Shown here: piece by piece, positions 2,151 to 26,984 of the stretch
Numbering within the stretch: the stretch's first letter is position 1
Layout of the letters: each line of letters starts with the position of its first letter
From: Candidatus Cryosericum hinesii
GTDB taxonomy: Bacteria; Caldisericota; Caldisericia; Cryosericales; Cryosericaceae
NCBI RefSeq assembly: GCF_003570985.1
Contig: NZ_QXIW01000011.1
Location: 1 to 64,000, forward strand
Reading direction: 5' to 3'
DNA: 64,000 nt
Notes under the pieces: model-generated
Told to the model about the DNA's origin: nothing
Seen by the model: only the letters and a program-made list of their open reading frames with translations
The model's database searches: none
Made by a program: the position numbers and the translations under genes

Positions 2151-2168
2151 GAAGTCCCTCCGGGTCAA

Positions 2169-3953
2169 TTACTCTTTGCGGATCGCACCAAAACGACAGA
2201 TTTCATAGCAGGAGCCACACTTGATGCACTTGCTCTGGTCGATTACGTGAACTTTCTTGACCTCGCCGGTGATAGCGTGTACGGAGCACTGTCGTGCACA
2301 TGCCGTGCACCCAACGCACTTGTCAGCCGTGACGGAGTATGTCAGCAGATGCTTGCACACATGCGCCGGACACTTCTTGTCGTATATGTGGGCACGGTAC
2401 TCATCTTCATAAAACCTGATCGTAGAAAGGACCGGATTGGGAGCCGTCTGTCCAAGCCCGCACAGCGACGTATCTATGATGCACTTGCCCAGCTTGGTCA
2501 GCTTCTCGATATCGCCATCCTTGCCCTTGCCATCGCAAATCTGTTCCATCATGTGAAACATCTGTCGAGTCCCTTCGCGACACGGCGTGCACTTCCCGCA
2601 CGACTCATCGACCGTGAACCCAAGGTAGAACTTGGCGACATCAACCATGCAGCTGGTCTCATCGAGAACGATGAGTCCGCCCGAGCCCATGATGGTCCCG
2701 ATCTCCTTGAGGGTGTCATAGTCGATCGGCATATCCAGATAATCCGGGGTGATGACTCCTCCCGACGGACCTCCAGTCTGGGCAGCTTTGAACTTCTTTC
2801 CGCCCGGGATGCCTCCGCCAATGTCAAAAACAAGCTCGCGCAGTGTCGTACCCATCGGCACTTCGACGAGACCAGTGTTCTGTACCATGCCTGCCAAGGC
2901 AAAGACCTTTGTACCCGGACTCTTGGCAGTACCTACACTCCGGAACCATTCCGCCCCATTTGTGATGATCTGAGGTATGTTGGCATACGTCTCGACGTTA
3001 TTGATCAGTGTTGGCTTGTTCCACAACCCGGACTGGGCAGGGAACGGAGGCTTGATGCTCGGCGTTCCACGCTTGCCCTCAATGGAGCGCAGGAGAGCGG
3101 TCTCCTCGCCACAAACGAACGCCCCGGCTCCGATACGGATCTCAATGTCGAAGCTGAACGATGTGCCCAAGATATTCCGTCCAAGGAACCCGTATTCGCG
3201 CGCCTTGCCGATCGCATACTCAAATCGCTCGATGGCAAGCGGATACTCCGCACGGACGTACATATAGCCCTGCTCTGCGCCGATTGCATATCCTGCGATC
3301 GCCATCGCCTCGATGATGGAGTGTGGGTCTCCTTCGAGCACGCTGCGATCCATGAAAGCGCCTGGGTCACCCTCGTCCCCATTGCAGACCACATATTTGG
3401 GTGAGCCCTGCGCTGCACGCGTAGCCTTCCACTTGAGACCGGTCGGGAATCCAGCTCCACCACGTCCACGCAAGCCGGAGTCGAGAACAACGCCGATAAT
3501 ATCGTCGGGCGTCATCTCAAGTGCCTTGCCAAGGGCGAAGTATCCGTCCCGAGCGATGTACTCCTCGATAGAAAGAGGATCGATGACACCACAGTTGCGG
3601 AGGACACGCTTCACCTGACGCGTGTAGAAGGGAATATCACCGCTGGTCTGAGCCTTTTTCTCGCTGGTCGGCTCACTGTACAGCAACTCGCTGACAGTAC
3701 GACCCTTTACAAGGTGCTCATTTACGATGAGGCCCGCGTTCTCGACCGTGACCTTCTGATAGAACGTCCCCTCGGGATACACGACAACGATCGGGCCCAG
3801 GTCACATGCTCCCATGCACCCGGTCTCGATGACTTGTACCTCATCCTCGATACCATTTTTCTTCAGTTCATCGACCAGAACGTCTTTGACGCTCTTTTCG
3901 CCACTCGTGATGCAGGCGCCGCCTGCACAGACCAACAGCTGATTTCGTATCAT
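2169..3953 (-). CDS. hydB: Hydrogenase NuoF-like flavoprotein subunit HydB
   Basis: FMN- and NAD(P)H-binding subunit of the hydrogenase (594 residues, usual size for HydB). Residues about 1-80 form a thioredoxin-like [2Fe-2S] domain (CAGGACITSG, GCMGACDLGP). The NuoF core follows, with the glycine-rich GLRGRGGAGFPTG, NGDEGDPGAFMDRS, an SLBB segment and the N3-type cluster motif CGKCTPCREG plus a later Cys in SLCGLG. The C-terminus adds a two-[4Fe-4S] ferredoxin module (CVGCTACARQC, CIKCGSCYEIC). This domain order is the one seen in bifurcating HydABC and related enzymes. It is in the same leftward operon as hydA and hydC. Confidence 0.95.
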   Translation of the reverse strand: MIRNQLLVCAGGACITSGEKSVKDVLVDELKKNGIEDEVQVIETGCMGACDLGPIVVVYPEGTFYQKVTVENAGLIVNEHLVKGRTVSELLYSEPTSEKKAQTSGDIPFYTRQVKRVLRNCGVIDPLSIEEYIARDGYFALGKALEMTPDDIIGVVLDSGLRGRGGAGFPTGLKWKATRAAQGSPKYVVCNGDEGDPGAFMDRSVLEGDPHSIIEAMAIAGYAIGAEQGYMYVRAEYPLAIERFEYAIGKAREYGFLGRNILGTSFSFDIEIRIGAGAFVCGEETALLRSIEGKRGTPSIKPPFPAQSGLWNKPTLINNVETYANIPQIITNGAEWFRSVGTAKSPGTKVFALAGMVQNTGLVEVPMGTTLRELVFDIGGGIPGGKKFKAAQTGGPSGGVITPDYLDMPIDYDTLKEIGTIMGSGGLIVLDETSCMVDVAKFYLGFTVDESCGKCTPCREGTRQMFHMMEQICDGKGKDGDIEKLTKLGKCIIDTSLCGLGQTAPNPVLSTIRFYEDEYRAHIYDKKCPAHVCKHLLTYSVTADKCVGCTACARQCSVHAITGEVKKVHVIDQSKCIKCGSCYEICRFGAIRKE

Positions 3954-9462: not shown

Positions 9463-10224
9463 TCAGGCCAAGAGCACCTTGCTCAGAAAACTCTGTGTAC
9501 GCTCCTGCTGAGGATGCTCAAATACCTCAGAAGGAGATCCGGACTCAATGATGAGTCCCTGATCCATAAAGATGACACGGTCCGCAACTTCCTTCGCAAA
9601 ACCAATCTCATGTGTGACCACAATCATTGTCATGCCCTCGTCTGCAAGTTTGACCATCACGTCGAGGACCTCATGGATCAACTCCACGTCAATGGAGGAC
9701 GTCGGCTCATCGAACAGCATGAGCTTCGGGTGCATGGCAAGCGCACGCGCTATGGCCACCCGTTGTTGCTCACCACCACTCATCTGAGCAGGCTTGTGAT
9801 CAGCACGATGCGACAGACCGACCTTCGCCAGAAGTTCCATTGCCTCAGTCTCAGCCGTTTTTCGAGCCACCTTCTTGACAGCGATAGGCCCCAGAGCGAC
9901 GTTCTGAAGAGCGGTAAGGTGAGGAAACACGTTGAACTGCTGAAACACCATGCCGATGTCTTCTCTCAGTCTGCGAATGTCATACTTGCCTGACTCGACG
10001 AGCTTGCCGTCGAATGTTATGCGGCCAGCAGACGGGGGCTCTATCCAATTGATGCACCTCACCAGTGTACTCTTGCCAGAACCTGAGGGACCCATCAACA
10101 CAAGCCGTTCCTTGAAATCCATGTCGAAGCTGACTCCCTTGATGACTTCGAGAGAGCCGAACGACTTGTGCAACTCGTCGACGACGAGCAGCTTCCCCTG
10201 TGATACCATCGTGTCGCCAGTCAT
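9463..10224 (-). CDS. Polar amino-acid ABC transporter ATP-binding protein
   Basis: GlnQ-type ATPase of 253 residues. Walker [11 protein letters not shown]-loop at [10 protein letters not shown], signature SGGEQQRV and Walker [13 protein letters not shown] are all present, followed by the H-loop VTHEIGFA. It would power the adjacent permease and binding protein. The start at 10224 lies next to the permease stop (1 base between), with AAGG upstream; a second ATG at 10209 is possible. Confidence 0.93.
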
Positions 10225-10225
10225 C

Positions 10226-10870
10226 TCACTCTACCTTCTTTTCGAGATTTCGGGACCACTGCATGACCGGCGTGGTCATGATCAAGTAGATGATTGCTGC
10301 ACCGATGTACGGCGAGAAGACATTGTACGTGCGGGCGCCGATAATCTTCGCCTTGAAGAGAAGATCCTCCATCGAGATGAAGGCGACCAGGGAAGTATCC
10401 TTGATCAACGCCGCAAACTCATTGGCAAGCGGCGGCAGAACTCGCCGGAACGTCTGCGGGAGGATAACGTGGCGCAGTGTCTGCGCCTGACTCATACCCA
10501 GCGAGAAAGCAGCTTCAGACTGTCCCTTGGGGATCGACTCGACGGCGGAACGGAATACCTCGGCAATGTAGGCAGCGTAGCACACTGCAAGGGAAACCGC
10601 GGCGGCGGGGAACTGAGGCAGGTTCAGTCCTATCCTCGGGAGAGCATAGTACACGATGAGAATCAGCAGCAAAGCCGGCGTCCCGCGCACGGCCTCGATG
10701 TAGACACGCGTAATGGCGCCGATGACCCTTCCCCCAAACATGTTCAACAATCCCACCAGCAACCCAGCGACAGTCGCAAAGATCATCGAGACGACCGTGA
10801 GCGAAAGCGTAGTCCATGCACCTGCCAGGAGGAACGGCAAGTTTTCGAAGATGATCGACCACTTAAACAT
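10226..10870 (-). CDS. Polar amino-acid ABC transporter permease
   Basis: A 214-residue HisM/GlnP-type membrane subunit with about five membrane helices. The EAA loop shows as [21 protein letters not shown], and the substrate-path element [14 protein letters not shown] is typical of the family. Only one permease gene is present, so the transporter is probably a homodimer. It sits 24 bases downstream of the binding-protein gene. Confidence 0.93.
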
Positions 10871-10894
10871 TTTCCGTTACCCCGACCACAACTG

Positions 10895-11680
10895 TTATTT
10901 GGGCAGGTATGGCGGGCTGGCAAAGAAGTACTTTTGGTAGAGACTCGCGTACGTTCCATCCGCAACCGCTTTGCGGAGGGCCGCATCGATGTCGCTCTTG
11001 AGTTGGGTGTCATCTTTGCGCACGGCGATGCCATACACCTGTGTCAGGTCCTGACCGGCCATTGAAGTGGTATCGAGAACTTTCAACTCAGTATGGGCAC
11101 TGGCATAGGTCGTGCACACAGGATAGTCGTTCACCACAGCGTCGATCTTGCCATTCTCGAGGTCCAGGGTAGCAAGCTGGATGTCGGGGTAGGAGTTGAC
11201 CTTCACCCCAGTGATCAGCTTGGCATCAATCTCACCTGTCGTACCGGTCTGAACGCCGACCGTCTTTCCCACAAGATCCTCGGGTTTGGTGATAGTGTTC
11301 TTGGCGGGGTTGTACATGATGCCCATGTCCGCCCTGTAGTAAGGAATGGAGAAGAGGACCTCCTTCTCGCGGTCGGCGGTGATCGTCATGGCGGCGCATA
11401 CTGCATCGAACTTCTTTCCCTGCAGGGCAAGGAGAAGCCCATCAAAAGCCCCGCTAGTCAGGTTGCTGGTCTTGCCCATCTTCACTGCAATGGCTTCCAT
11501 CAGTTCGACGTCAAACCCTGTGGGCTTGTTGTTCGCATCGGCGTACTCGAATGGCGCATACGTCGGGTCCGTCCCCCAGTTAAGTGTCCCGGTCTTAGCC
11601 TTGCACCCTGTCGACACCGTGACAATCACTGCAGCAACTACTATCAAGACGACAATACGGGCAAACGCTGTCTTCTTCAT
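10895..11680 (-). CDS. Polar amino-acid ABC transporter substrate-binding lipoprotein
   Basis: A 261-residue SBP_bac_3 protein. The signal peptide ends in the lipobox VSTGC (Cys 26), so the protein is probably lipid-anchored. Family patterns GTDPTYAPFEY and GFDVELMEAIAVKMG are present. It heads the operon with the permease and ATPase. Codons for 91 residues in the middle are 91% identical in DNA to the orphan binding protein at 12755-13591, while the flanks are only about 46% identical in protein; see the repeat entries. The bound amino acid cannot be named. Confidence 0.93.
   Translation of the reverse strand: MKKTAFARIVVLIVVAAVIVTVSTGCKAKTGTLNWGTDPTYAPFEYADANNKPTGFDVELMEAIAVKMGKTSNLTSGAFDGLLLALQGKKFDAVCAAMTITADREKEVLFSIPYYRADMGIMYNPAKNTITKPEDLVGKTVGVQTGTTGEIDAKLITGVKVNSYPDIQLATLDLENGKIDAVVNDYPVCTTYASAHTELKVLDTTSMAGQDLTQVYGIAVRKDDTQLKSDIDAALRKAVADGTYASLYQKYFFASPPYLPK
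11117..11389 (-). repeat. Converted segment, copy 1 (inverted relative to copy 2)
   Basis: A 273-base segment inside the first binding-protein gene that differs from 13082-13354 (opposite strand) at 24 positions by direct codon-by-codon comparison, that is 91% identity, with one unbroken identical run of 58 bases. Protein identity inside is 86/91; just upstream it falls to about 31/67. Confidence 0.9.
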
Positions 11681-15306: not shown

Positions 15307-16282
15307 CTTCGAACCTCTTGCCCACCATCTTGAGAAACGCGTCTTCCAGAGTGGGCTCGAGTTTGCGCATGTACTCGAGGGTTGCCCCCTGCCCTGCCAG
15401 TGCCGTGATGAGACGGGCGATGTCGCTCTCGTGCATCAGATGTGCGACAAGCATTGGACTCTGCGTCACCTTGTCGGAACCAAGCACGAGATCGTTCCCC
15501 TCCCCCATGGATGCAGTGATATGGTCAAGCTGGTCCCCGTCGAGCCGATCGACCGTAATCTCGTAGTGCGCCCTGCTGTCCAGATCCTGCTTAAGTTGTG
15601 ATGGAGCTGCGTTCGCAAGAATGAGCCCGTGGTTGATGATAGCCACGCGCGAACAGAGTTCATCGGCTTCTGCCATGTAGTGTGTTGTCAGAATGACCGA
15701 GCGTTCCGGCTTCTCCCGAACCCAATCACGCACGATGTTGCGGATAATGACACTCGCCTCGACATCGACGCCAAGCGTCGGCTCGTCAAGGAACAGAACC
15801 TTGGGGTCGGTGACGAGACCACGCACCAGATTGACCTTCTGACGCATGCCGGTGGACAGGCGGTTCATCTGCTGACGCCTGCTGTCCCACATGCCGACGA
15901 CCTTGAGGTATTCCTCGATCCGGGCACGTGCCACATGCGTCTCCATGCCGTAGAACTGACTGAACATCCAGAGCTGCTCTTCAACCGTGAGAATGCCATA
16001 CCCCGAGGTCTCGCCCCCGGAAATAAGGCTGATGAGCGGACGTACATGAGTATAGTCCTTCTCGACGTCGAATCCGGCCACAGTAACGCGCCCAGACGTA
16101 GGAAGCAGCAATGTCGACATGATCTTGATGGTCGTCGTCTTGCCGGCGCCGTTCGGGCCCAGAAGACCGAAGATCTCGCCATATGAGACGTCGAAGCTGA
16201 CACCCCGCAGCGCGTGGAAAGGTGCCGTGCCCCTGCGGTTGAAGACACGACTGAGGTTCTCTACTTGAATAGCTGTATGCAT
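15278..16282 (-). CDS. ABC-2 type exporter ATP-binding protein
   Basis: A 334-residue ATPase of the DrrA/CcmA type. Walker A GPNGAGKTT, signature LSTGMRQKV, Walker B VLFLDEPTLGVD and the H-loop TTHYMAEADELC are all in place. A C-terminal extension of about 100 residues follows, usual in this exporter group. ATG has GGAGGTAGCACTGT in front. It is the first gene of the three-gene exporter operon; a promoter is seen about 250 bases upstream, leaving a long untranslated leader. Confidence 0.92.
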   Translation of the reverse strand: MHTAIQVENLSRVFNRRGTAPFHALRGVSFDVSYGEIFGLLGPNGAGKTTTIKIMSTLLLPTSGRVTVAGFDVEKDYTHVRPLISLISGGETSGYGILTVEEQLWMFSQFYGMETHVARARIEEYLKVVGMWDSRRQQMNRLSTGMRQKVNLVRGLVTDPKVLFLDEPTLGVDVEASVIIRNIVRDWVREKPERSVILTTHYMAEADELCSRVAIINHGLILANAAPSQLKQDLDSRAHYEITVDRLDGDQLDHITASMGEGNDLVLGSDKVTQSPMLVAHLMHESDIARLITALAGQGATLEYMRKLEPTLEDAFLKMVGKRFEDEEEASPVS

Positions 16283-16604
16283 ACAGTGCTACCTCCAGAA
16301 CGAGTGTGGGGAAAAGCGAACTGTATGGCAGGGGAGATTACTGACGGACTCTGTGAGAGTCAGTGACTGAGGAATTGACGGTCCTGCGTTTACTATGGCA
16401 AACTCTTGTCTGCAGCTTGTCCAATCAACGGCGCCCCTGTCATCAGTTGATGCAAATCCTGTTCTCTGTCATTGTCCTGCCTCCACATGCACGAATGTCT
16501 ATACGCGCCCTCAAAGCCTGATTTTGAGACTATACCAGAGCGTATCTGTTTTGTCAAATGGTTGTATCTCGCATGAGTAGCGAGCCATCCGGTTCTCAGG
16601 GACA
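16283..16604. other. Long leader region of the exporter operon
   Basis: No gene is supported. It contains the promoter at 16529-16557 and, nearer the ATPase gene, an imperfect hairpin around 16340-16364 (ACTGAC...GTCAGT). The leader of about 240 bases is unusually long for this window and could carry post-transcriptional control, but no known riboswitch is recognised. Confidence 0.4.
16529..16557 (-). promoter_or_regulatory. Putative promoter of the exporter operon
   Basis: Reading leftward: TTGACA (16557-16552), 17-base spacer, TATAGT (16534-16529). The -35 box is a perfect consensus. Confidence 0.65.
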
Positions 16605-16647
16605 CCGAAAGCCGCCCGGTCCCTTCTCGGGAAAAGGCGGCTTTCGG
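16605..16647 (-). terminator. Hairpin after the ferredoxin:disulfide reductase gene
   Basis: A perfect 12-bp stem (CCGAAAGCCGCC / GGCGGCTTTCGG) with a 19-base loop, about 20 bases downstream of the leftward reductase stop. No U tract follows. Confidence 0.65.
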
Positions 16648-16666
16648 CAACAATAATATTTTCAGG

Positions 16667-17167
16667 CTACATGAAACGCTCGAAACGCTCCTTGCCAGCC
16701 TTGCAGACTGGACAGACCAGCGGAGGCTGCGGCCTTGCGCACAGGTATCCACAAACCCTGCATCGCCAGACCGGAAACGCGAGCCCGGCCACATGCACCT
16801 GTTCCATCTCCCCCGGGTGCGCAGTTGGCCCGCCGACCGGACGCCGGTCCGGAATGGAGGTTGCGGTCTTCTCACCACGACTGATTTCGGGCGAGACATA
16901 CAGTGCGCAGTAGCAGGCGCCGTATTCGTCGAGGTCAGTGTCTCGGTAGTCACACGGACAGACGAGGTCGACATCCCGTTCCCTCACTCCTGACGCCAGA
17001 CGGCAGGGACAGGCGCGATATCCGTAGCGTGCCTCGTTCTCCAGCAGGCCCCGGACCAGATCCCTGGCAAAAGCGTCGTCAGGGTTGACAGAGTATCCTG
17101 CCTCCCGTGCTTCGAGGGCCAGTCTCTCCCAGACTTCGGCGACACGCTCGTCCGGTATTCTGCTCAT
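16667..17167 (-). CDS. Ferredoxin:disulfide reductase (FTR catalytic domain fused to rubredoxin-like domain)
   Basis: A 166-residue fusion. Residues about 15-105 form the catalytic chain of ferredoxin:thioredoxin reductase with the motif order CPC-x14-CPC-x12-CYC; the plant enzyme has CPC-x16-CPC-x8-CHC, so the catalytic-region histidine is tyrosine here. Residues about 130-166 are a rubredoxin-like knuckle pair (CRVCGYLC, CPVCKAG). Similar fusions are the ferredoxin:disulfide reductases of methanogens, where the Fe-S site takes electrons from ferredoxin to reduce a disulfide in two one-electron steps. The start overlaps the glutaredoxin gene by 4 bases (ATGA), so the glutaredoxin-like protein is the likely partner. 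Confidence 0.88.
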   Translation of the reverse strand: MSRIPDERVAEVWERLALEAREAGYSVNPDDAFARDLVRGLLENEARYGYRACPCRLASGVRERDVDLVCPCDYRDTDLDEYGACYCALYVSPEISRGEKTATSIPDRRPVGGPTAHPGEMEQVHVAGLAFPVWRCRVCGYLCARPQPPLVCPVCKAGKERFERFM

Positions 17168-17451
17168 TCAGCCGCGAGTTCTCGAATCTTGTCTTCCTGG
17201 AAACCTACGACACAATCCTTGTCATCCAGGACGATGGTCGGAAACGAGCACGCTGGGTTCCATTTCAGAACCTCCTGCTTGGCCAGTTCCTTGTTTCCAC
17301 CCTCCTGGTCGTCGACATCGACGTAGTCATAGCCCACGCCCAGTTCCTGCAGCAGTGCCTTCGTCTTGCGACACCAGCCACAGGTCGTCAGCGTGTAGAG
17401 GAAGACCTTATGCTTGTTGTGTATTCCTTCGACATGTTTGGGTTCCAACAC
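17164..17451 (-). CDS. Glutaredoxin-like protein
   Basis: A 95-residue thioredoxin-fold protein with the redox motif TTCGWCRK (Cys-Gly-Trp-Cys) near residue 24 and the cis-Pro segment CSFPTIVLDD near residue 71. It probably shuttles electrons from the co-encoded ferredoxin:disulfide reductase to target disulfides. GTG at 17451 is used because AAGGAGGACACA precedes it directly. It overlaps the reductase gene by 4 bases. Confidence 0.9.
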   Translation of the reverse strand: MLEPKHVEGIHNKHKVFLYTLTTCGWCRKTKALLQELGVGYDYVDVDDQEGGNKELAKQEVLKWNPACSFPTIVLDDKDCVVGFQEDKIRELAAE

Positions 17452-17478
17452 TGTGTCCTCCTTGACGCAGATAAATGA

Positions 17479-18507
17479 CTAAGCGTGCAACAATGATCTG
17501 AAAATCTCGACGGTCTCGTGACACTCATCGGTCGTCACATCGTGGTGCGTGACCAGCCGGACCGTAGTCGGCGTGACGGCATTGCACAGAACGCCTTTCT
17601 CCTGGAGCGCGGCTACGAACGACGGTGCATCCTGACCACTTGCGCTGACGTTGACCATGGCCATGTTGGTTTCGGTTTCAGACGGGTCAGTTCCATACCC
17701 GATCCCGGCGAGCTCGCTCGCGAGGAGTTTTGCGTTCGCATGGTCCTCCGCCAGTCTGTCCACCATCGTCTCAAGCGCTACAATACCCGCAGCCGCCAGA
17801 ATACCGACCTGACGAAGTCCGCCTCCCAGGCGCTTTCGGTTCTTACGTGCCCGTTCAATATAGTCTCTGGACCCCACGAGCAATGATCCGACAGGAGCAC
17901 ACAAGCCTTTGGAAAGACAAAACATGACTGAATCGGCGTAGGATGCCCACACATCCGGTGTGATACCGGAAGCGATCGATGCATTGAAGATCCGCGCTCC
18001 ATCCATGTGCACGGCAATGCCGCGCTCTCGCGCCTCTGCCGATATCTCACGCACATACTCGATGGGCCATACCTTGCCCCCACCTCGATTATGCGTGTTC
18101 TCGATGGCAATAAGGGATGTCCGGGGAAAGTGAATATTGCTGGAGTCACGAATGGCATGCTTGACGTCATCAGGATCCATGACGCCCCGCTTGCCTGGGA
18201 TCTGCCGAGCCTGAACGCCCGACAGCATCGCAATGTCACCGACCTCATAGTAGAAGATGTGGCTCTCGGCTTCCGTAATAAGCTCGTCCCCGCGCTGCGT
18301 GTGCGTCATGATGGCGACCTGATTTCCCATCGTACCCGAACACACGAACAGACCAGCCTCCTTGCCCAGCATTTTCGCACCCAGGTCTTCCAGTCTGACG
18401 ACAGTAGGGTCCTCCCGATAGACATCATCGCCGACCTCAGCCGTCGCCATGGCATCCCGCATGGCTTGTGTAGGCTTCGTGACAGTATCAGAACGAAAAT
18501 CGATCAT
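17479..18507 (-). CDS. ltaE: Low-specificity L-threonine aldolase
   Basis: PLP enzyme that cleaves L-threonine or allo-threonine to glycine and acetaldehyde. The 342 residues follow the family throughout: [10 protein letters not shown] at the start, [11 protein letters not shown], the substrate loop [21 protein letters not shown] and the PLP-lysine in [13 protein letters not shown]. Length is usual. It lies between nifU-like and glutaredoxin genes in a run of five leftward genes; why a glycine-forming enzyme is placed there is not clear. Confidence 0.93.
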
Positions 18508-18552
18508 TGTTCCCCTCCAGATGGATTGAGTCCTCTGCGATGCATAGAATAA

Positions 18553-19185
18553 TTAGACATTCTCGACGTTAACCGACTTGACCCCACGAATTTTGCTGAC
18601 GTGCTCGACAATCTCGTTAATCGTCGGGTCCAGGAACTTGTCGTCAGAACCAACGCTGATTTCGACCCTGACCGCACCCTGGTCAATGCCGATGTACTTG
18701 ACCATCTTGAGCGTGATGATATCGACCCCGACTGGCGGCCACAACACATGCTTCAGTTCCTCAGTCACGGTCTTGACGTCAAGCGTGGAATCATAGTCGA
18801 TGCCCTTCATTTCTTTCTTGTACTTGCGAATGGCAGACCGGAGTCCGTCGACAGCGAGAACCGAGCAATGCATTTTGACTGGAGGGAGACCCCCCAGCTC
18901 GTCGGCAGCCTGTTTCCACGTGATCGCCTCAGCCTCATCGATCGTCTTGCCCTTGGCCAAGTCTGTGATGATGGAACCTGTGGCTATATTGGAGGCACAG
19001 CCGTAGGACTGGAATTTCACATCCTCGATACGGTCGGTCGCCTTGTCGATCTTGAGGTAAACCGTGATCTCGTCTCCGCATGCGGGCGACCCTTCAGTGG
19101 CACAGGCGTCGGCATTCTCGATCACGCCGATGTTGTGTGGGTTCTTGAAATGTTCGATGACTTTCGTAGTGTACTTGATTGCCAT
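18553..19185 (-). CDS. IscU/NifU-type Fe-S scaffold fused to a DUF59-like domain
   Basis: A 210-residue protein. Residues 1-125 are an IscU scaffold with the three cluster cysteines in SPACGDEI, SYGCASNIATG and KMHCSVLAVDG and the nearby Asp in place. The last 70 residues (LKHVLWPPVGVDIITLKMV, then a beta-strand GAVRVEISVG and RGVKSVNVENV) resemble the MIP18/DUF59 (SufT-like, FSCA) fold rather than the CxxC-containing Nfu domain; the usual DPE element reads WPP. It lies 9 bases from the cysteine desulfurase gene, its sulfur donor. The scaffold call is firm; the second domain is by fold pattern only. Confidence 0.85.
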   Translation of the reverse strand: MAIKYTTKVIEHFKNPHNIGVIENADACATEGSPACGDEITVYLKIDKATDRIEDVKFQSYGCASNIATGSIITDLAKGKTIDEAEAITWKQAADELGGLPPVKMHCSVLAVDGLRSAIRKYKKEMKGIDYDSTLDVKTVTEELKHVLWPPVGVDIITLKMVKYIGIDQGAVRVEISVGSDDKFLDPTINEIVEHVSKIRGVKSVNVENV

Positions 19186-19194
19186 GGTACCTCC

Positions 19195-20376
19195 TTATTG
19201 CGCAGGCGGCCTGATCGTGCTCTGAGCGCGCAAACGTTCCACGATCGGAACCAGCTTTGCCAGAGCAGTATCGACGTCAGCCTCCGTGCTGTATCGAGAC
19301 AACGTGAAGCGAATCGAGCCATGCGCCTCTTCGTGATTGCGCCCGATCGCCATGAGAATATAGTTCGGTTTCAATGTCGCAGCCGCGCAGGCCGAACCTG
19401 TGTCGACCACGATGTGATCCATGTCGAGGAACATCATGATCGCCTCGCCCTCGATGAACAGGAAACTGTAACACAGATGCGACGCAGCCCTTCCGGCGCC
19501 ATCCGGCCCATTGAGCAAAATATATGGAATGTGCTCACGAATGCCAGTGGCAAGACGGTTCGTGAGGCCAAGCATGTGCTCAACATCTTTGTCGAAGGTC
19601 GCGTACAGCAACTCGACGGCCTTGTCGAATCCTGCAATGCCCATCGTGTTGGGTGTGCCCGGCACAAGCGGAGAATACGACTCCGAACCAAAAGTGATAG
19701 GGCGTATCTTCGTGCCCTTTCGCACGTAGAGGGCGCCAACACCCTTGGGGCCATGGATCTTGTTGCTGGAGAAACTCACCAGATCTGCCTTCACCGCGTC
19801 GACATCCAGTCGCTGCGTCTGTAGTGCACTGGCGAAATCCACATGGTATGGAATCCTGCGGCCCACGTGCTGTGACGCCTCGGCAATGATTGTTCCTGCC
19901 TCGGCAAGAGGTTCGATCGTACCGATCATGTGGTTGACACCCATCAGGCTGACCATCGCCGTGTGCTCATTCAGGACCGAGGAAAGCTGGTCGAGATCAT
20001 ACTTTCCCTCACCATCGACCTTGATGTAGTGAGCCCGGTAGCCTTCCTTCTCCAGTGCCTTGTACACCGCGAGCGTAGCAGGGTACTCGATCTCGCTGGT
20101 CACAATCTCCGGTTTGTCGACTGCCTGCGCCCACGTCGAGCCCCACAGGGCGATGTTGATAGCTTCAGTGCCACTTCCCGTGAACACGACCTCATTCTGC
20201 GACGCTCCAATGGCGGCTGCAAGCCGGTTCTGTGCTCTCTCTACGAGTTCCGCGGCACCAGTGCCGCACTGCGTGAATGCTGCCGGTACCGCGTATTCAT
20301 CAATAGCAGCAGTGCGCATCGCTGCCCAGACCTCAGGCGCGACCATCGTACTGCGAAAGTTGTCAAGATAAATCAT
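19195..20376 (-). CDS. iscS: Cysteine desulfurase (IscS/NifS)
   Basis: PLP enzyme that removes sulfur from cysteine and passes it to the scaffold encoded next. The 393 residues include YLDNFRSTMVAPEV at the start, TGSGTEAINIALWG, the HVDFASALQ region with the PLP aspartate, the PLP-lysine in SFSSNKIHGPKGVG, and the catalytic cysteine in TGSACAAATLKPN near residue 330. The Cys loop is short, as in NifS-like class I enzymes. It is the first gene of the iscS-iscU-ltaE-grx-reductase run. Confidence 0.94.
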   Translation of the reverse strand: MIYLDNFRSTMVAPEVWAAMRTAAIDEYAVPAAFTQCGTGAAELVERAQNRLAAAIGASQNEVVFTGSGTEAINIALWGSTWAQAVDKPEIVTSEIEYPATLAVYKALEKEGYRAHYIKVDGEGKYDLDQLSSVLNEHTAMVSLMGVNHMIGTIEPLAEAGTIIAEASQHVGRRIPYHVDFASALQTQRLDVDAVKADLVSFSSNKIHGPKGVGALYVRKGTKIRPITFGSESYSPLVPGTPNTMGIAGFDKAVELLYATFDKDVEHMLGLTNRLATGIREHIPYILLNGPDGAGRAASHLCYSFLFIEGEAIMMFLDMDHIVVDTGSACAAATLKPNYILMAIGRNHEEAHGSIRFTLSRYSTEADVDTALAKLVPIVERLRAQSTIRPPAQ

Positions 20377-20436
20377 TGCCTACCTCCTTTTCCTGCAGTG
20401 GACAAGAACAGCCTCGAATGCAGGATTTCTTCTTTC

Positions 20437-20463
20437 AGCCTATCACAAACGGGGCAAAGTCAA
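20437..20463 (-). promoter_or_regulatory. Putative promoter of the iscS operon
   Basis: Reading leftward: TTGACT (20463-20458), 15-base spacer, TAGGCT (20442-20437), about 60 bases before the iscS start. No IscR-type operator was recognised. Confidence 0.5.
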
Positions 20464-20488
20464 CACACGAAAAAGCGGTGAATGCGCG

Positions 20489-21427
20489 TCAACGTGCAGA
20501 GTGGTGGTGGCTCAGTATGTTGTACGTACCTCTCATGTCTCTGTAGTGCCGGAGATCAGAACGGGACAGTACCAGCATCTGGCGAACAACATCGGGCTGA
20601 CTGGGATACCGCTCAGCAATTGCACGGTATCCCATGAAGGCCTTGCGTTCGGCTTCCACGACAACGCCGAGTCCCTGGAGCAGAGCACCGTAGTCAAGAA
20701 CCTGTCCTGGCTTCAGAGAAGCGATGGCTTCCCTATGCGGCTCATAGACAACACCCGTATATGCACGGTGCAACTGCTGCAACAGCTGAGCATGGGCAGC
20801 TTCACCGGCTGCGAGCAAGCTGAATGTTGCCTTCAGGCGCCTGTTGGGGGTCATCTCGACAAGCTGCAGGTAGCGAGTACGTACTTCGACCTCATTCTCG
20901 ATTGCATCTTCCAGCAGCTCCTGGAGACTTGTCAGTGCTCCTTGCGCTTCCCGCGCAATGTGTTGTCCGACACGACTTCCCAGCGACCGAAGATACTGCA
21001 GCGCCCGCCACAGGGTGCGAAGACTGAAGACCCCACCAATCGTTCCTCCCTGTCTGACAATGTCATCCTCGAGCTGGGAGATCAGGTCGTCGCCACCGCT
21101 CAAGCGACGCGTCATCACCAGGAATACGGTGACACCTCCGAGATCGACCGAGCGGACAAATCCAGATACCGCAGGCACGACGGCCCCATCCCAGTAGGGA
21201 AAAACGAGAACAAGCCTGTCCCCTCGGACGAACGATACACCGGGGGTGCTCAGTACGCCCAGGTCAAAGCCACGGACTGCCCGCCTCGCTGAACGCTTCC
21301 ATCCAGCAGGTAGAGTACTGAAGCGATCGGTCAGGCCAAAGAGCGGGGCATCCAGTGCCGCCGCTATGCCTTCAGCTACCATTCGAGAATGTCCCATAAC
21401 AGAGTAGAACACCGTCTTCGTTGTCAT
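20489..21427 (-). CDS. Flavodoxin-like domain fused to a rubrerythrin/ferritin-like diiron domain
   Basis: A 312-residue two-domain protein. Residues 1-150 have the alternating strand-helix pattern of flavodoxin (TVFYSVMGHSRMVAEGIA, LVLVFPYWDG, GVTVFLVMTRRLSGGDD). Residues about 170-305 form a four-helix ferritin-like bundle with diiron-type ligands: Glu in IENEVEVRTRY, E-x2-H in AAGEAAHAQ, Glu in VVEAERKAF and D-x2-H in RSDLRHYRD (Asp where Glu is usual). No rubredoxin domain is present. A flavin domain feeding a diiron site suggests reduction of O2 or peroxide in an anaerobe, but the fusion is not one I know, and function is inferred. ATG at 21427 has GAGGAGCAACTCA upstream. Confidence 0.8.
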   Translation of the reverse strand: MTTKTVFYSVMGHSRMVAEGIAAALDAPLFGLTDRFSTLPAGWKRSARRAVRGFDLGVLSTPGVSFVRGDRLVLVFPYWDGAVVPAVSGFVRSVDLGGVTVFLVMTRRLSGGDDLISQLEDDIVRQGGTIGGVFSLRTLWRALQYLRSLGSRVGQHIAREAQGALTSLQELLEDAIENEVEVRTRYLQLVEMTPNRRLKATFSLLAAGEAAHAQLLQQLHRAYTGVVYEPHREAIASLKPGQVLDYGALLQGLGVVVEAERKAFMGYRAIAERYPSQPDVVRQMLVLSRSDLRHYRDMRGTYNILSHHHSAR

Positions 21428-21448
21428 TGAGTTGCTCCTCTGACGCAA

Positions 21449-21480
21449 TCAGCCCACCGCCATTGTAGCCGGTGGGCTGA
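21449..21480 (-). terminator. Hairpin after porB
   Basis: A perfect 11-bp stem (TCAGCCCACCG / CGGTGGGCTGA) with a 10-base loop, 27 bases beyond the leftward porB stop and just before the ribosome-binding site of the flavodoxin-diiron gene. Confidence 0.7.
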
Positions 21481-21506
21481 CGAATACAACGCGAGTCTCA
21501 GGCGAT

Positions 21507-22451
21507 CTAGAACTGGATGCCGGATTCCTCGAGCTTGAGCAGACGGGCCCACTCGTCATCGATCATCTTTTGCATTTCGACGATGACATGTTCGTTCCCA
21601 GGCTTGAACAAATGCCTGAACCGTGTCTGACCCTTGAGGAACTCCTCAATCGGTTTACGGTTGGAGGGCTTGGTGTTGACATGTACGACACCGTTCTCGA
21701 TCTCGTACAGTGGCCAGAAGTTGGTCTCGACAGCCAACTTGGAATACTGCATGGTAAGTGCGGGATCAAAGGACCAATTGGTTGTGCAAGGCTGCAGAAC
21801 CGCAAGAACGGCCGGACCATCAGCATTGAAACCCTTCTGCGCCTTCTTGTACAGGTCCAGCGTGTTGTGAACTGCTGCCTGGCCGACATATGGAATACGG
21901 TGGGCCGCAACAATCTCCACGAGGTTCTTTCTCCACTGCGGCTTGCCATTGCTCACTTTGCCGGCAGGTACCGTCGTTGTACTGGCTCCAAACGGAGTCG
22001 CACCGCTGCGCTGGTTTCCGGTGTTCATATAGCCCTCATTGTCGTAGACAAGGTACATGAACTTGTGCTTGCGCTCGAGCGCCCCGGAGAGAGCCTGGAA
22101 TCCGATGTCATACGTGCCACCGTCACCTCCGACTGCAAGGATGTTGACCTCGCTGTCGATCTTGCCACGGCGCTTGAGCGACCTGTACGCTGACTCGACC
22201 CCCGCTGCTACCGCAGCAGCGTTCTCGAACGTCAGATGCATCCACGGAGTGTTCCACGCGGTGAACGGATAGACTGACGTCGTCACCTCCAGACACCCTG
22301 TCGCATTGAGCACGATGACCGGCTTGTCCGATGCCGCGAGAACAGTCTTGATGAGAGGTCCAATGCCGCAACCAGAACACATCCGATGGCCGGATACAAT
22401 TCGAGCATCAGCACCATCAGTCTTCAAAGCGATTTCCTGCAGTGTAGGCAT
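21507..22451 (-). CDS. porB: 2-oxoacid (pyruvate):ferredoxin oxidoreductase beta subunit
   Basis: Thiamine-diphosphate-binding subunit (314 residues). The cluster and TPP elements are visible: RMCSGCGIG near the N-terminus, NATGCLEV, the TPP-Mg motif GGDGGTYDIGFQ and YDNEGYMNTGNQRSGATPFG. A third cysteine in LQPCTTNWSF completes the expected pattern. The sequence features favour pyruvate over 2-oxoglutarate, but specificity is not proven. It is the last gene of porC-porD-porA-porB. Confidence 0.93.
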   Translation of the reverse strand: MPTLQEIALKTDGADARIVSGHRMCSGCGIGPLIKTVLAASDKPVIVLNATGCLEVTTSVYPFTAWNTPWMHLTFENAAAVAAGVESAYRSLKRRGKIDSEVNILAVGGDGGTYDIGFQALSGALERKHKFMYLVYDNEGYMNTGNQRSGATPFGASTTTVPAGKVSNGKPQWRKNLVEIVAAHRIPYVGQAAVHNTLDLYKKAQKGFNADGPAVLAVLQPCTTNWSFDPALTMQYSKLAVETNFWPLYEIENGVVHVNTKPSNRKPIEEFLKGQTRFRHLFKPGNEHVIVEMQKMIDDEWARLLKLEESGIQF

Positions 22452-22456
22452 GTCTG

Positions 22457-23626
22457 CTACCCCCTCAGTCCGATGTACCGCTGATGCTCCGGATCGAGTT
22501 TGCCGGACAGCAGTTCCTCGAAAACAGATTCAATTTCGGTGGCCATGATGTCGCGGCCACCCAACCCATAGATATAGCTCTGTGTCGTCGGCCTTCTGTC
22601 CAGTTCGAACAGTACGTTCCGTATCTCAGTATACACGGGTGCATAAGCCCCAAAATCCATCGATCGATCGAGGACACCGACGACGGGAACGTCCTTTAAC
22701 GCGTCACGGACCTCAGCATACGGGAACGGACGGAACAGGATCGGTTTGAGCAGACCCACCTTCTTGCCAAGCGCGCGCATCGCGTCAACAGCGACCTTTG
22801 CGGTGCCGGCCGCCGAGTTCAAGACTACAATGACCGCGTCTGCATCCTCGGTCCTGTACGTCTCGAAGAACGGATACTGGTGCCCTGTGATGGCAGACAG
22901 TTCCTTCCCTGCCTCGGCGTACACCTCAAAGACATGCATCATCGCTTCTTCCTGAGCCCGCTTCACCTCAAGCAGGTAGTCGGGCAGAACCATTGCGCCT
23001 ATCGTCCGGACATGCTGCAAGTCGAGCAGCCCCCTGTCCAGAGGGCGGACCCCCACAAACGTTCGAACAGCGGCATCATCGAAGATCTCGACCGGCTCGA
23101 CAGCGTGGCTGGTGATGAACCCGTCCTGGTTGACCATGGCCGGTAGTTGCACCCTCGTGTCTTCGGCGACACGGATGGCGAGCAGCAGGTTCTCGTAGAC
23201 TTCCTGGGCATTCTCACTGAAAATCTGGATCCAGCCGACAGTCGTAACCCCCATGACATCCGAATGATCACAGTGGATATTCAGAGGAGCTGAAATTGTA
23301 CGGTTGACAAGTGGCATGACAATCGGCAACCGCAGACCCGGCGTGGCAGCAACGATCTCCCACATGAGTGCTAGCCCCTGTGACGACGTTGCTGACATTG
23401 CTCGAGCTCCCGCTGCCTCTGCCCCAACGGTTGCCGACATGGCAGAGTGTTCCGACTCGACAGGAACCATCTCTGTATCGACAATTCCATCCGCAACATA
23501 CTTTGCAAACTGTTCAACGATTGGTGTCTGGGGTGTAATCGGATAAGCCACGACAACGTCGGGGTTGATCTGCCGCATCGCCTCAGCAGCCGCCTCAGCA
23601 CCGGTAATTGCTTTCCTGACTCCCAT
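22457..23626 (-). CDS. porA: 2-oxoacid (pyruvate):ferredoxin oxidoreductase alpha subunit
   Basis: A 389-residue alpha subunit that forms the substrate and TPP pyrimidine part of the active site. Family patterns are VVAYPITPQTPIVEQFA near the start, VESEHSAMSATVGAEAAGAR and ATSSQGLALMWE. The start at 23626 is preferred because GGGAGGAAC precedes it; the longer reading is an artefact. It follows porD by 14 bases and precedes porB by 5. Confidence 0.95.
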   Translation of the reverse strand: MGVRKAITGAEAAAEAMRQINPDVVVAYPITPQTPIVEQFAKYVADGIVDTEMVPVESEHSAMSATVGAEAAGARAMSATSSQGLALMWEIVAATPGLRLPIVMPLVNRTISAPLNIHCDHSDVMGVTTVGWIQIFSENAQEVYENLLLAIRVAEDTRVQLPAMVNQDGFITSHAVEPVEIFDDAAVRTFVGVRPLDRGLLDLQHVRTIGAMVLPDYLLEVKRAQEEAMMHVFEVYAEAGKELSAITGHQYPFFETYRTEDADAVIVVLNSAAGTAKVAVDAMRALGKKVGLLKPILFRPFPYAEVRDALKDVPVVGVLDRSMDFGAYAPVYTEIRNVLFELDRRPTTQSYIYGLGGRDIMATEIESVFEELLSGKLDPEHQRYIGLRG

Positions 23627-23640
23627 ATCTGTTCCCTCCT

Positions 23641-23991
23641 CTACAACTTGCAAGAGGCCTGCTCTGCCTCTTCTTCGCGAATCATACTGAGACACTTGGT
23701 CGGACACTCATGGGCGCAGATACCGCATCCCTTGCAGTAGTCGAGGTTTGTCTCCAATCGTACGACTCCTTTGAATAACCGTCCGCCCTTGCCGGCGACT
23801 CCTTCCTCGCTCTTGGTGACAGGAATAGCCATATCTGGGCAGTAGTTCACACAAATCATGCAATGAATACATTCAGAAGCGTTCCAGACAGGACGGAGAA
23901 CACGCCACCCACCGGTTTTATAGCCAAGCGATGTAGCTGCCGGCAATTCCACGCCCAGTTCAAGCTCCTGCCATGTCTTTCTTTCGCTCAT
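23641..23991 (-). CDS. porD: Oxidoreductase delta subunit (2[4Fe-4S] ferredoxin)
   Basis: A 116-residue ferredoxin-type subunit that carries electrons from the TPP site to soluble ferredoxin. Two [4Fe-4S] motifs are complete: CIHCMICVNYCP and CKGCGICAHECP. The first 45 residues hold the PorD leader (GGWRVLRPVWN). It overlaps porC by 4 bases (ATGA). Confidence 0.93.
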   Translation of the reverse strand: MSERKTWQELELGVELPAATSLGYKTGGWRVLRPVWNASECIHCMICVNYCPDMAIPVTKSEEGVAGKGGRLFKGVVRLETNLDYCKGCGICAHECPTKCLSMIREEEAEQASCKL

Positions 23992-24554
23992 TTGAACACC
24001 TCCTCATAGCCCTTTCGGAGCATGCTGATGTTCTTCTGTACCTTCTCTTCGCCTATCTTTGGCAGGAAGTGCTCGCGCAAGACAATCTCCAGCGACTCCA
24101 TCTTGACAACGCCGGTCAACTTCACGAGTGCCCCGAGCATTGGCACGTTCGGCGTGTCCATGCCCAGCAACTCCAGTGAAATACCGGTAGCGTCGACACC
24201 GTACAGGGTTCCATTAAACTGCGCCAGCTTCTTGATCTCAGCGGAGCATACTTTGGTGTTAACGATGAGGATGCCAGTGTCAGGCAACCCCGCTGCAACC
24301 GCAATGGAGCGCATGATGCCAAAATCGAGCACCAGGACGACATCAGGGTTGACAATCGGCTCATGACTCCTGAGCACCTTCTCGGCGATTTTGGTGTAAG
24401 AGACCGTCGGAGCACCTCGACGCTCAGACCCATACTCGGGGAAAGACTGAATGTACTTGCCCTCCCTGAACGCTGCCTCGGCGAGCAACTGGGATCCTGA
24501 CTTGGCTCCCTGGCCCGCTCTGCCATGCATTCTGACTTCGTAGACTTCCTTCAT
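23988..24554 (-). CDS. porC: Oxidoreductase gamma subunit
   Basis: A 188-residue gamma subunit with the N-terminal HGRAGQGAKSGSQLLAEAA motif, followed by YGSERRGAPTVSYTKI and a C-terminal LGALVKLTGVV. In structures of the family it contacts the active-site face of the alpha/beta dimer. ATG at 24554 is preceded by GAGGAGGAAAC; the long upstream extension has no such signal. It is the first gene of the operon. Confidence 0.93.
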   Translation of the reverse strand: MKEVYEVRMHGRAGQGAKSGSQLLAEAAFREGKYIQSFPEYGSERRGAPTVSYTKIAEKVLRSHEPIVNPDVVLVLDFGIMRSIAVAAGLPDTGILIVNTKVCSAEIKKLAQFNGTLYGVDATGISLELLGMDTPNVPMLGALVKLTGVVKMESLEIVLREHFLPKIGEEKVQKNISMLRKGYEEVFK

Positions 24555-24724
24555 GTTTCCTCCTCTTTCCAGAGCTCGATCGCAGATTCGTGGTTCCACG
24601 GCATACGTTCGTGCAGAATGCCCTGCAAGGCTTACAGAGCCACTTCTGGAACCAACCATGCAAAACAGAACTAGCCAGAAGCACACTGTGTCAAACGACG
24701 CCTACCAGCCCTTCCTGCATCAAT

Positions 24725-24753
24725 ATTATAGAATGCGTGGGGGCAAAAAGCAA
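24725..24753 (-). promoter_or_regulatory. Putative promoter of porCDAB
   Basis: Reading leftward: TTGCTT (24753-24748), 17-base spacer, perfect TATAAT (24730-24725), about 170 bases before porC. Confidence 0.6.
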
Positions 24754-24794
24754 TGGAATATCAAGAAACCGTCACAGTCCAGAACACAGTACCA

Positions 24795-24816
24795 CCGACC
24801 TCTCGAGAGGTGTCGG
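24795..24816 (-). terminator. Palindromic hairpin after the lipoprotein gene
   Basis: A 12-bp palindrome CCTCTCGAGAGG (24799-24810) extended by CCGA and TCGG on the outside, 27 bases downstream of the leftward lipoprotein stop. Probable end of the decarboxylase gene run. Confidence 0.5.
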
Positions 24817-24842
24817 ACTCCGGTATCGCGGCCTGCGCGTGC

Positions 24843-25664
24843 CTACTTCCCGATCGCCGACCCAAGCAGTGTCAACTGTTGTTCGAGCCAAGGCACAAAG
24901 GCACCTTTAGCCGTTGCGCCGAGAGCATCCAGGCTGCAGGCAACGATGCCGTTTGACTGCCGACTGACTCCGGTGCTGCCTCCAGGAGCAACATTCACGA
25001 CTACGACCTGGGTCTTCTCTCCGGACCCCCAGTCAGCAACTCTCGAGGCTGCCTCTGCCCCCGAGAGGTCAAGACCCTTCAGTCCCGGCTGAACCACAAC
25101 CCGCAACCCGAAGTCCCCAGCTGCGCTTGACCATGTCGTGTCCTCTGCCAGGAATGCCCTGGTACCAGCACTCCAGACTAGCCGTTTCAGTCGACCATCC
25201 GCCTGGCTACACTGGTCCATGAACACTGCATACCGCGAGTCGAACTGCTCCTTCAGCGCAGGGTACAGGACATCCAGCGTATCGCGCATCAGGCGAGCCA
25301 TATCTGCGGCGTCCCGAAAAGATAGCCATGAACCTTCCAGCGTGTCCTTATCCAAGGCGGCAGAGAGACTGACGAAGCGCACGCCTCCCTGCTCCATCTC
25401 GCTAGACCATGTATCAATAGAGGTTCCGGTCTGAAAAACGACAGCACTCGTGGACACAAGCTCTCGCGCATTCCGGAGAGGTGCTCCGTCGTCCCCGGCA
25501 AGAACCTGAACCTGCAACGCGGTACCAGCGATAGCCTGGGCGATCAGGGCAACCGGCTTGATGGTTCCCGAGATGATCGTGGGCACTACAACGTTGCGTG
25601 GGCCACAACCGGACACTGCCATCGTCACGACCATGGTGCAGGCAAGGATTATCCGAAGCTTGTT
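24843..25664 (-). CDS. TroA/ZnuA-fold lipoprotein without histidine
   Basis: A 273-residue exported lipoprotein (lipobox VSGC). The order of segments after the signal follows metal-ABC binding proteins of the ZnuA/TroA type (TIISGTIKPVALIAQAIAG, then ARELVSTSAVVFQTG, SIDTWSSEM). The metal-binding histidines of that family are absent; the whole mature protein contains no histidine. No permease or ATPase gene is near. GTG at 25664 is chosen because GAAGGAGGCTGGC directly precedes it; the longer reading would start inside that site. It follows the OadG-like gene by about 50 bases and may be co-transcribed with the sodium pump. Function unknown. Confidence 0.72.
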   Translation of the reverse strand, partial: NKLRIILACTMVVTMAVSGCGPRNVVVPTIISGTIKPVALIAQAIAGTALQVQVLAGDDGAPLRNARELVSTSAVVFQTGTSIDTWSSEMEQGGVRFVSLSAALDKDTLEGSWLSFRDAADMARLMRDTLDVLYPALKEQFDSRYAVFMDQCSQADGRLKRLVWSAGTRAFLAEDTTWSSAAGDFGLRVVVQPGLKGLDLSGAEAASRVADWGSGEKTQVVVVNVAPGGSTGVSRQSNGIVACSLDALGATAKGAFVPWLEQQLTLLGSAIGK

Positions 25665-25715
25665 CACGCCAGCCTCCTTCACGAGTCCGCTACTGGCGGA
25701 AACTCGTGTTACCGG

Positions 25716-25850
25716 TTACGCTGAATCGTCCTTTGGAGGGAGCATCCTCAACAAAAGCTTGATGAGACCGTAGAAGATTCCCAGCACGGCAAAGATGAGG
25801 ATATAGCTCACCCCGCTGATGCGCAGACCCTCAGCAACAACAGTATCCAT
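25716..25850 (-). CDS. Small OadG-like membrane subunit of the sodium-pump decarboxylase
   Basis: A 44-residue protein: MDTVVAEGLRISGVSYILI starts it, one membrane helix covers about residues 14-36 (YILIFAVLGIFYGLI), and the tail is short and charged (LPPKDDSA). Gamma/delta subunits of oxaloacetate and methylmalonyl-CoA decarboxylases are single-helix proteins with this orientation, but usually 80-120 residues with a Pro-rich tail. ATG has AGGAGGTAGCC upstream, and the gene lies 9 bases after mmdB, the position expected for a gamma subunit. Identity is inferred from place, size and topology. Confidence 0.7.
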   Translation of the reverse strand: MDTVVAEGLRISGVSYILIFAVLGIFYGLIKLLLRMLPPKDDSA

Positions 25851-25859
25851 GGCTACCTC

Positions 25860-26984
25860 CTATCGTACCAGGGCCAGGATCAAACCTCCTGCAATGATGG
25901 AGGCGATCTGCCCTGCCACGTTTGCCCCAACAGCATGCATGATGATGAAGTTACTGCCATCTTCCTGCTGCGCCATCTTCTGGATGACGCGGGCAGACAT
26001 CGGAAACGCCGATATGCCGCACGCGCCGATCATCGGGTTGATCTTTCGTTTCCGGAACAAGTTGATCAACTTCGCGAAGAGGACTCCACCCGCCGTATCG
26101 AACACGAAGGCAATGAGACCCATCGCGATGATGAGGAGCGTCGTCGGATTCAGGAATTGCTTTCCTCCCATAGACGACCCTATCGTGATGCCCAACAGGA
26201 TGGTCACCAGGCTGGAAAGCTCATTTTGAGCAGTCTTGGAGAGACGCTCCGTTACCCCGGACTCACGCAGCAGGTTGCCAAACATGAGGCTGCCGATCAG
26301 AGCCACGGACATGGGTGCTATGATACCGGCGATAAGCGTGACAGCAATGGGAAAGATGACTTTCACCGTCCTCGATACCTCGTGTTCAGGGTTCTCCATG
26401 TGAATCATGCGCTCTTCGCGGGTCGTGAGCGCCCGAATGATCGGTGGTTGAATAATTGGGACAAGCGACATGTAGGAATAGGCGGCCACGGTGATCGGGG
26501 CCAACAATGCTGGAGCAAACCGCGTAGCGACATAGATCGCCGTCGGTCCGTCGGCTGCCCCGATGATTCCAATCGCAGCAGCTTCTCTGAGACCTGGAAT
26601 GCCCGTAACGCCGGGGATACGCCCGACCAGCAGAGCCAGCATCATCGTAAAGAAGATTCCAAATTGCGCTGCTGCTCCAAAGAACAACATCTCGGGATCC
26701 TGCAGAAGTGGACCGAAATCGATCATTGCTCCCACGCCGATGAAGATGAGGATGGGGAAAAGCTCATTCGTGATACCGCCCTTGAACAAGACGTCCAAGA
26801 AGCCACCACCGACCGCTGACGAAAACGGGATGTTGGCCAGCAGGCAGCCAAATCCCATGGGCAACAAGAGGTTCGGCTCATACTCCTTCTTCACTGCGAG
26901 CCAAATAAGCGCCAGACCGACACCGAACATCGCCCATACACGCCAGTCTGCCATACCCACAATACCACGCAGCAAGTCTGTCAT
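25860..26984 (-). CDS. mmdB: Sodium-pumping decarboxylase beta subunit
   Basis: Integral membrane subunit that decarboxylates carboxybiotin and exports Na+ (OadB/MmdB/GcdB family, 374 residues). Conserved parts include GVGAMIDFGPLL, the cytosolic-half motif GIIGAADGPTAIYVATRFAP with the key Asp, and NPMIGACGISAFPMSARV near the C-terminus. About ten membrane helices are present. It lies after a hairpin that separates it from the biotin-protein gene, so its expression may be partly independent. Confidence 0.95.
   Translation of the reverse strand: MTDLLRGIVGMADWRVWAMFGVGLALIWLAVKKEYEPNLLLPMGFGCLLANIPFSSAVGGGFLDVLFKGGITNELFPILIFIGVGAMIDFGPLLQDPEMLFFGAAAQFGIFFTMMLALLVGRIPGVTGIPGLREAAAIGIIGAADGPTAIYVATRFAPALLAPITVAAYSYMSLVPIIQPPIIRALTTREERMIHMENPEHEVSRTVKVIFPIAVTLIAGIIAPMSVALIGSLMFGNLLRESGVTERLSKTAQNELSSLVTILLGITIGSSMGGKQFLNPTTLLIIAMGLIAFVFDTAGGVLFAKLINLFRKRKINPMIGACGISAFPMSARVIQKMAQQEDGSNFIIMHAVGANVAGQIASIIAGGLILALVR

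Follow-up and report, generated by a model that had tools for sequence, protein, structure and literature searches.

A flavodoxin domain fused to a ferritin-like four-helix bundle is encoded between pyruvate:ferredoxin oxidoreductase and Fe-S assembly genes in Candidatus Cryosericum

A fusion of a flavin-type domain with a diiron four-helix bundle was confirmed as real in Candidatus Cryosericum (Caldisericota), a genus of permafrost and sediment bacteria. The gene, designated gene X, lies in the window analysed here, the first 64,000 nucleotides of contig NZ_QXIW01000011.1 of Candidatus Cryosericum hinesii, which belongs to an assembly of 1.94 Mb that is 80% complete. The positions of gene X, its domains, predicted ligands and neighbours are listed in Table 1. 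Chance or an assembly artefact as the source of the gene was excluded by 12 orthologues with a dN/dS of about 0.2. An antisense ORF of 263 codons lies opposite gene X (window positions 20501–21292, plus strand) and was judged to be non-coding, as both selection and domain matches favour the minus strand. Gene X brings two known domains together in a new combination that is confined to the genus, and the interpretation of its product in a preliminary description, as an O2- or peroxide-reducing enzyme in which FMN takes the place of rubredoxin, is plausible and partly supported.

Table 1. Gene X, its parts and the surrounding genes (window positions).
Feature	Position	Strand	Basis
Gene X, flavodoxin–ferritin-like fusion, 312 aa + stop	20489..21427	(-)	Intact ORF; orthologues in 12/15 genus genomes
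Flavodoxin domain, residues 1-138	21014..21427	(-)	Model secondary structure, Foldseek, stand-alone homologues matching PF12682
Putative FMN phosphate-type loop SVMGHS (S/T-x-x-G-x-S/T), residues 9-14	21386..21403	(-)	Conservation among orthologues
Linker with predicted helix, residues 139-166	20930..21013	(-)	Helix 143-162 in model
Ferritin-like four-helix bundle, residues 167-300	20528..20929	(-)	PF02915/COG1633, 2fzf, model
Helix A ligand E179	20891..20893	(-)	Aligns with Glu of relatives, core-facing
Helix B ligands E209xxH212	20792..20803	(-)	Alignment with relatives, core-facing
Helix C ligand E260	20648..20650	(-)	Invariant among orthologues
Helix D ligands D291xxH294	20546..20557	(-)	Alignment with relatives, core-facing
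Conserved hairpin between porB and X	21450..21489	(-)	z -2.98
porB, pyruvate:ferredoxin oxidoreductase beta subunit	21507..22451	(-)	
porA	22457-23629	(-)	
porD, ferredoxin subunit	23641-23991	(-)	
porG	23988-24551	(-)	
nifS-type cysteine desulfurase	19195..20376	(-)	
nifU-type Fe-S scaffold	18553..19185	(-)	

A Pfam search with the N-terminal half of X alone gave no convincing match to any flavodoxin family. The profile of the orthologues matched stand-alone proteins of 160–172 amino acid residues from other phyla (E-values down to 1.7e-16), and these homologues match Flavodoxin_4 (PF12682). In the AlphaFold2 model the N-terminal half showed alternating strands and helices in the five-strand order of flavodoxins, and a Foldseek search with the model returned flavodoxins, FMN-bound flavoproteins among them; the TM-score for 4j8p was 0.73 on the target. 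The flavodoxin-like character first claimed for this half is thus borne out, and since homologues, model and Foldseek all give a flavodoxin, the preliminary description's own counter-case, an N-terminal half devoid of a flavin-binding fold, does not apply. In the FMN-type loop S9 and G12 are invariant and S14 is present in 10 of 11 sequences, and the domain may bind FMN. The linker that follows diverges faster than both flanking domains. Another Foldseek match, Ava_4496 (PDB 3fse, E-value 3.6e-5), likewise combines an alpha/beta domain with a ferritin-like domain, but its alpha/beta domain is DJ-1/PfpI-like and not a flavodoxin. The mean pLDDT of the model was 79, with values of at least 90 in most of the bundle and of 52–66 in parts of the flavodoxin domain, and the pTM of 0.52 makes the relative placement of the two domains unreliable.

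The C-terminal half was above the Pfam cut-off for PF02915 (E-value 9e-7 with the whole protein and 7.6e-8 with this half by itself). A profile of eleven orthologues matched PDB 2fzf, a stand-alone ferritin-like protein of Pyrococcus furiosus, with an E-value of 1.1e-7, and the model of X superposed on this structure with a TM-score of 0.77 on the target (Foldseek). Stand-alone COG1633/PF02915 proteins of this type share with X the bundle fold and the positions of the E, ExxH, E and ExxH residues, but they have no flavodoxin domain. The six candidate ligands of X (E179, E209, H212, E260, D291 and H294) aligned with these residues in six PF02915 relatives and in the rubrerythrin of the same genome, the helix-D carboxylate being Asp (DxxH) in X and Glu (ExxH) in the relatives. 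When the direction of each ligand was measured against the local hydrophobic moment, the ligands themselves being left out of the computation, all six pointed at most 42 degrees from the local hydrophobic face; by this indirect test they face the core of the bundle and do not point away from it, against the second counter-case of the preliminary description. The ferritin-like half with Glu, ExxH, Glu and DxxH ligands therefore stands as originally read, and the bundle may bind iron.

In agreement with what had been noted at the outset, X has neither a rubredoxin nor a beta-lactamase domain. There is no Cys anywhere in the protein and hence no rubredoxin Fe(Cys)4 domain, which is a usual but not universal feature of rubrerythrins, and no metallo-beta-lactamase diiron domain was found, PF02915 being the sole family to reach its cut-off. 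X resembles classical rubrerythrins, which carry a C-terminal rubredoxin, in the fusion of a PF02915 bundle to an electron-transfer domain, but in X this domain is of the FMN type and N-terminal, and helix C has no second Glu. This residue (ExxE) was present in the rubrerythrins inspected, as EHYE in the one from the same genome, whereas helix C of X reads E260-RKAFMG-Y, with no Glu at positions 261–266. In rubrerythrin the second helix-C Glu is part of a redox-dependent movement of iron that is linked to the preference for peroxide. Strictly speaking, X should thus not be termed a rubrerythrin, and chemistry with O2 or iron may also be possible.

Twelve of the 15 genomes of the genus carry gene X, and the order porB-X-nifS was found in all 12 carriers, that of genome G035 being pieced together from two contigs. 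Among the named near relatives of the gene, that of C. septentrionale shares 90% identity, that of C. terrychapinii 88% and that of C. odellii 86%, and further ones were found in Caldiserica MAGs from lake sediment and water. In two genomes without X, G028 (97% complete) and G029, porB and nifS adjoin with about 210–230 bases between them; no trace of this porB or of X was found in G031. In the midpoint-rooted tree of PorB and NifS, the genomes G028, G029, G026 and G035 form long, deep branches, and since X is present in the deep pair G026/G035 and absent from both G028 and G029, we infer an ancestral X gene and at least two losses as the simplest account.

No such fusion was found among about 370 bacterial genomes of some 317 other genera, in which each half occurs separately, the PF02915 survey being read among the strongest matches listed. 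None was found in the phylum with the best matches to the flavodoxin half, and viral contigs and plasmids contained no relative of X. Long ORFs of other genomes with a match to one half were read, and none proved to be a flavodoxin fusion: L088 is a flavodoxin ORF that has been extended too far, L089 looks like a chance match, and L103–L108 are mostly rubrerythrins or another diiron enzyme. L087 (positions 1473–2429, minus strand, genome G322) is instead a single ORF of 318 amino acid residues in which a HAD/FCP1-type phosphatase-like region with a DLDGTL motif comes after a ferritin-like domain. A flavodoxin-rubrerythrin fusion was not found in the open-access literature searched.

Over 45 pairs from the ten closer orthologues, dN/dS is 0.18 in the flavodoxin half and 0.23 in the ferritin half, which indicates purifying selection of no great strength on both. 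In these ten orthologues five ligands never vary, and the sixth, E209, is changed once, to Lys, in L039 of genome G032 (positions 2200–3135). The ligand set is damaged in three of the 12 orthologues, the other two being the most divergent: L043 of G026 (positions 10001–10924) has K179, D209, Q212 and Q291 and keeps E260 and H294, and L044 of G035 (positions 10001–10936) has lost both helix-D ligands, D291 and H294. The ORF is open in all three. Identity to the divergent pair is 55–57% in the flavodoxin half versus 37–45% in the diiron half. Most of the genus thus seems to make use of the diiron site, which its outlying members seem to have given up. The better conservation of the flavodoxin half, the decay of the ligands in divergent orthologues with the ORF still open, and the position of X beside porB in every carrier genome would fit a protein that serves Por chiefly as a flavodoxin electron carrier and whose bundle, with an optional metal site, is a module for dimerisation or redox sensing. 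This is unlikely, as ligands that hardly change among the ten closer orthologues speak for use of the site in that group.

The location of X between Por and Fe-S genes was described correctly from the start, with four por genes on one side and nifS-nifU on the other. The por genes (G, D, A, B), X, nifS, nifU and the genes for a beta-eliminating lyase, a glutaredoxin-like protein and an FtrB-like protein all run in one direction. The FtrB-like (ferredoxin-thioredoxin-reductase-like) domain is fused to a rubredoxin-like end (16667–17167, minus strand) and overlaps the end of the glutaredoxin-like gene, another fused redox pair. The hairpin between porB and X, present in a single copy in the genome, contains a promoter-like pair, TTGTAT-N16-TACAAT, of which the second hexamer falls within the loop; since the hairpin is kept in all the genus members checked, with or without X, it probably acts as a terminator for por or as a shared promoter rather than as an element of X itself. 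A promoter-like stretch (TTGACT...) is also conserved before nifS, including in G028, and with such stretches before both X and nifS the genes of this row are not necessarily co-transcribed. No Rfam match was obtained in 16000–26000. The genome also encodes a rubrerythrin of the ordinary kind, and an ORF of 400 codons in it carries the flavodiiron domain, so that X would be an addition, neither a replacement nor the sole defence.

The constant position of X directly upstream of nifS-nifU, its ferritin-like ligand set without the rubrerythrin-specific Glu, and the weak hits that some orthologues give to ferritin-like families associated with encapsulins would suit iron handling for Fe-S assembly, in which the bundle would oxidise and hold iron and the flavodoxin domain would reduce it, releasing Fe(II) to NifS-NifU. 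This role is distinctly unlikely, as nifS has a conserved promoter-like upstream region of its own, retained in G028 without X, and adjoins porB without X in two genomes, and nothing points to a cage. No match to the encapsulin family PF04454 was found in the genome (assembly 80% complete), a further point against this role, and the reading of X as encapsulin cargo was dropped. An NrdI/NrdF-like role, in which the flavin would make superoxide or peroxide that is channelled to the dimetal site and builds an oxidised cofactor for another reaction, as the same pair of folds does in class Ib ribonucleotide reductase (PMC6754362), where a flavodoxin-like protein serves a ferritin-like dimetal site for cofactor activation rather than turnover but the two are separate proteins, is highly improbable, since the bundle of X belongs to PF02915 and not to the other ferritin-like family, that of NrdF (X had no Pfam or NCBIfam match to NrdI or NrdF), and the neighbourhood indicates no substrate or partner.

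The proposal that X is a soluble FMN-diiron oxidoreductase of H2O2 or O2, which takes electrons from Por or from a Por-reduced carrier and protects oxygen-sensitive enzymes, is the likeliest of the readings and is given an even chance. The flavodoxin domain would accept the electrons from either donor, these would pass from FMN to the diiron site within one polypeptide or oligomer, the six-ligand site of COG1633 type would reduce H2O2 or O2, and their removal would protect the oxygen-sensitive enzymes. A precedent for the fused donor is HydR, an [FeFe] hydrogenase-rubrerythrin chimera that joins a diiron site of the rubrerythrin type to its electron donor and acts as an H2O2 reductase (PMC11926857), although the donor there is a hydrogenase containing Fe-S clusters and the rubredoxins are kept. 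Flavodiiron proteins, in which FMN and a diiron centre work together (PMC6033852), are the precedent for the pairing of flavodoxin domain and diiron site, but there a beta-lactamase fold holds the diiron site.

The reductase reading is supported by the flavodoxin fold and its stand-alone homologues, by the matches to PF02915 and 2fzf, by the six ligands, which match those of the relatives and face the core, by the retention of both halves and by the fixed gene order. It is weakened by the loss of ligands in the divergent pair and the E209K change, by the better conservation of the flavodoxin half, by the missing second helix-C Glu, by the two genomes of the genus with no X between porB and nifS, by the rubrerythrin and flavodiiron protein that the genome already has, and by the unreliable domain arrangement in the model. 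As to the original idea of FMN replacing rubredoxin in an O2 or peroxide reductase, its two halves, ligand set, absent domains and oxygen-sensitive neighbours (in all 12 carriers) were upheld; the lack of the Glu that would be the seventh ligand and the three damaged ligand sets speak against X as a simple rubrerythrin with FMN in place of rubredoxin. More tentatively, and with the balance somewhat against it, X may represent a class of diiron oxidoreductase not described before, which would draw its power from pyruvate by way of Por and whose ferritin-like diiron site would receive electrons directly from an FMN domain, in effect a flavodiiron protein with a four-helix bundle as its scaffold.

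To our knowledge, this permafrost lineage of Candidatus Cryosericum is uncultured. The orthologue series, with full, damaged and missing ligand sets, provides natural controls. If the proposed reductase function is true, X would be an independent answer, on the rubrerythrin fold, to the problem solved by flavodiiron proteins, the delivery of flavin electrons to a diiron site, and would be part of how this lineage survives oxygen after thaw.
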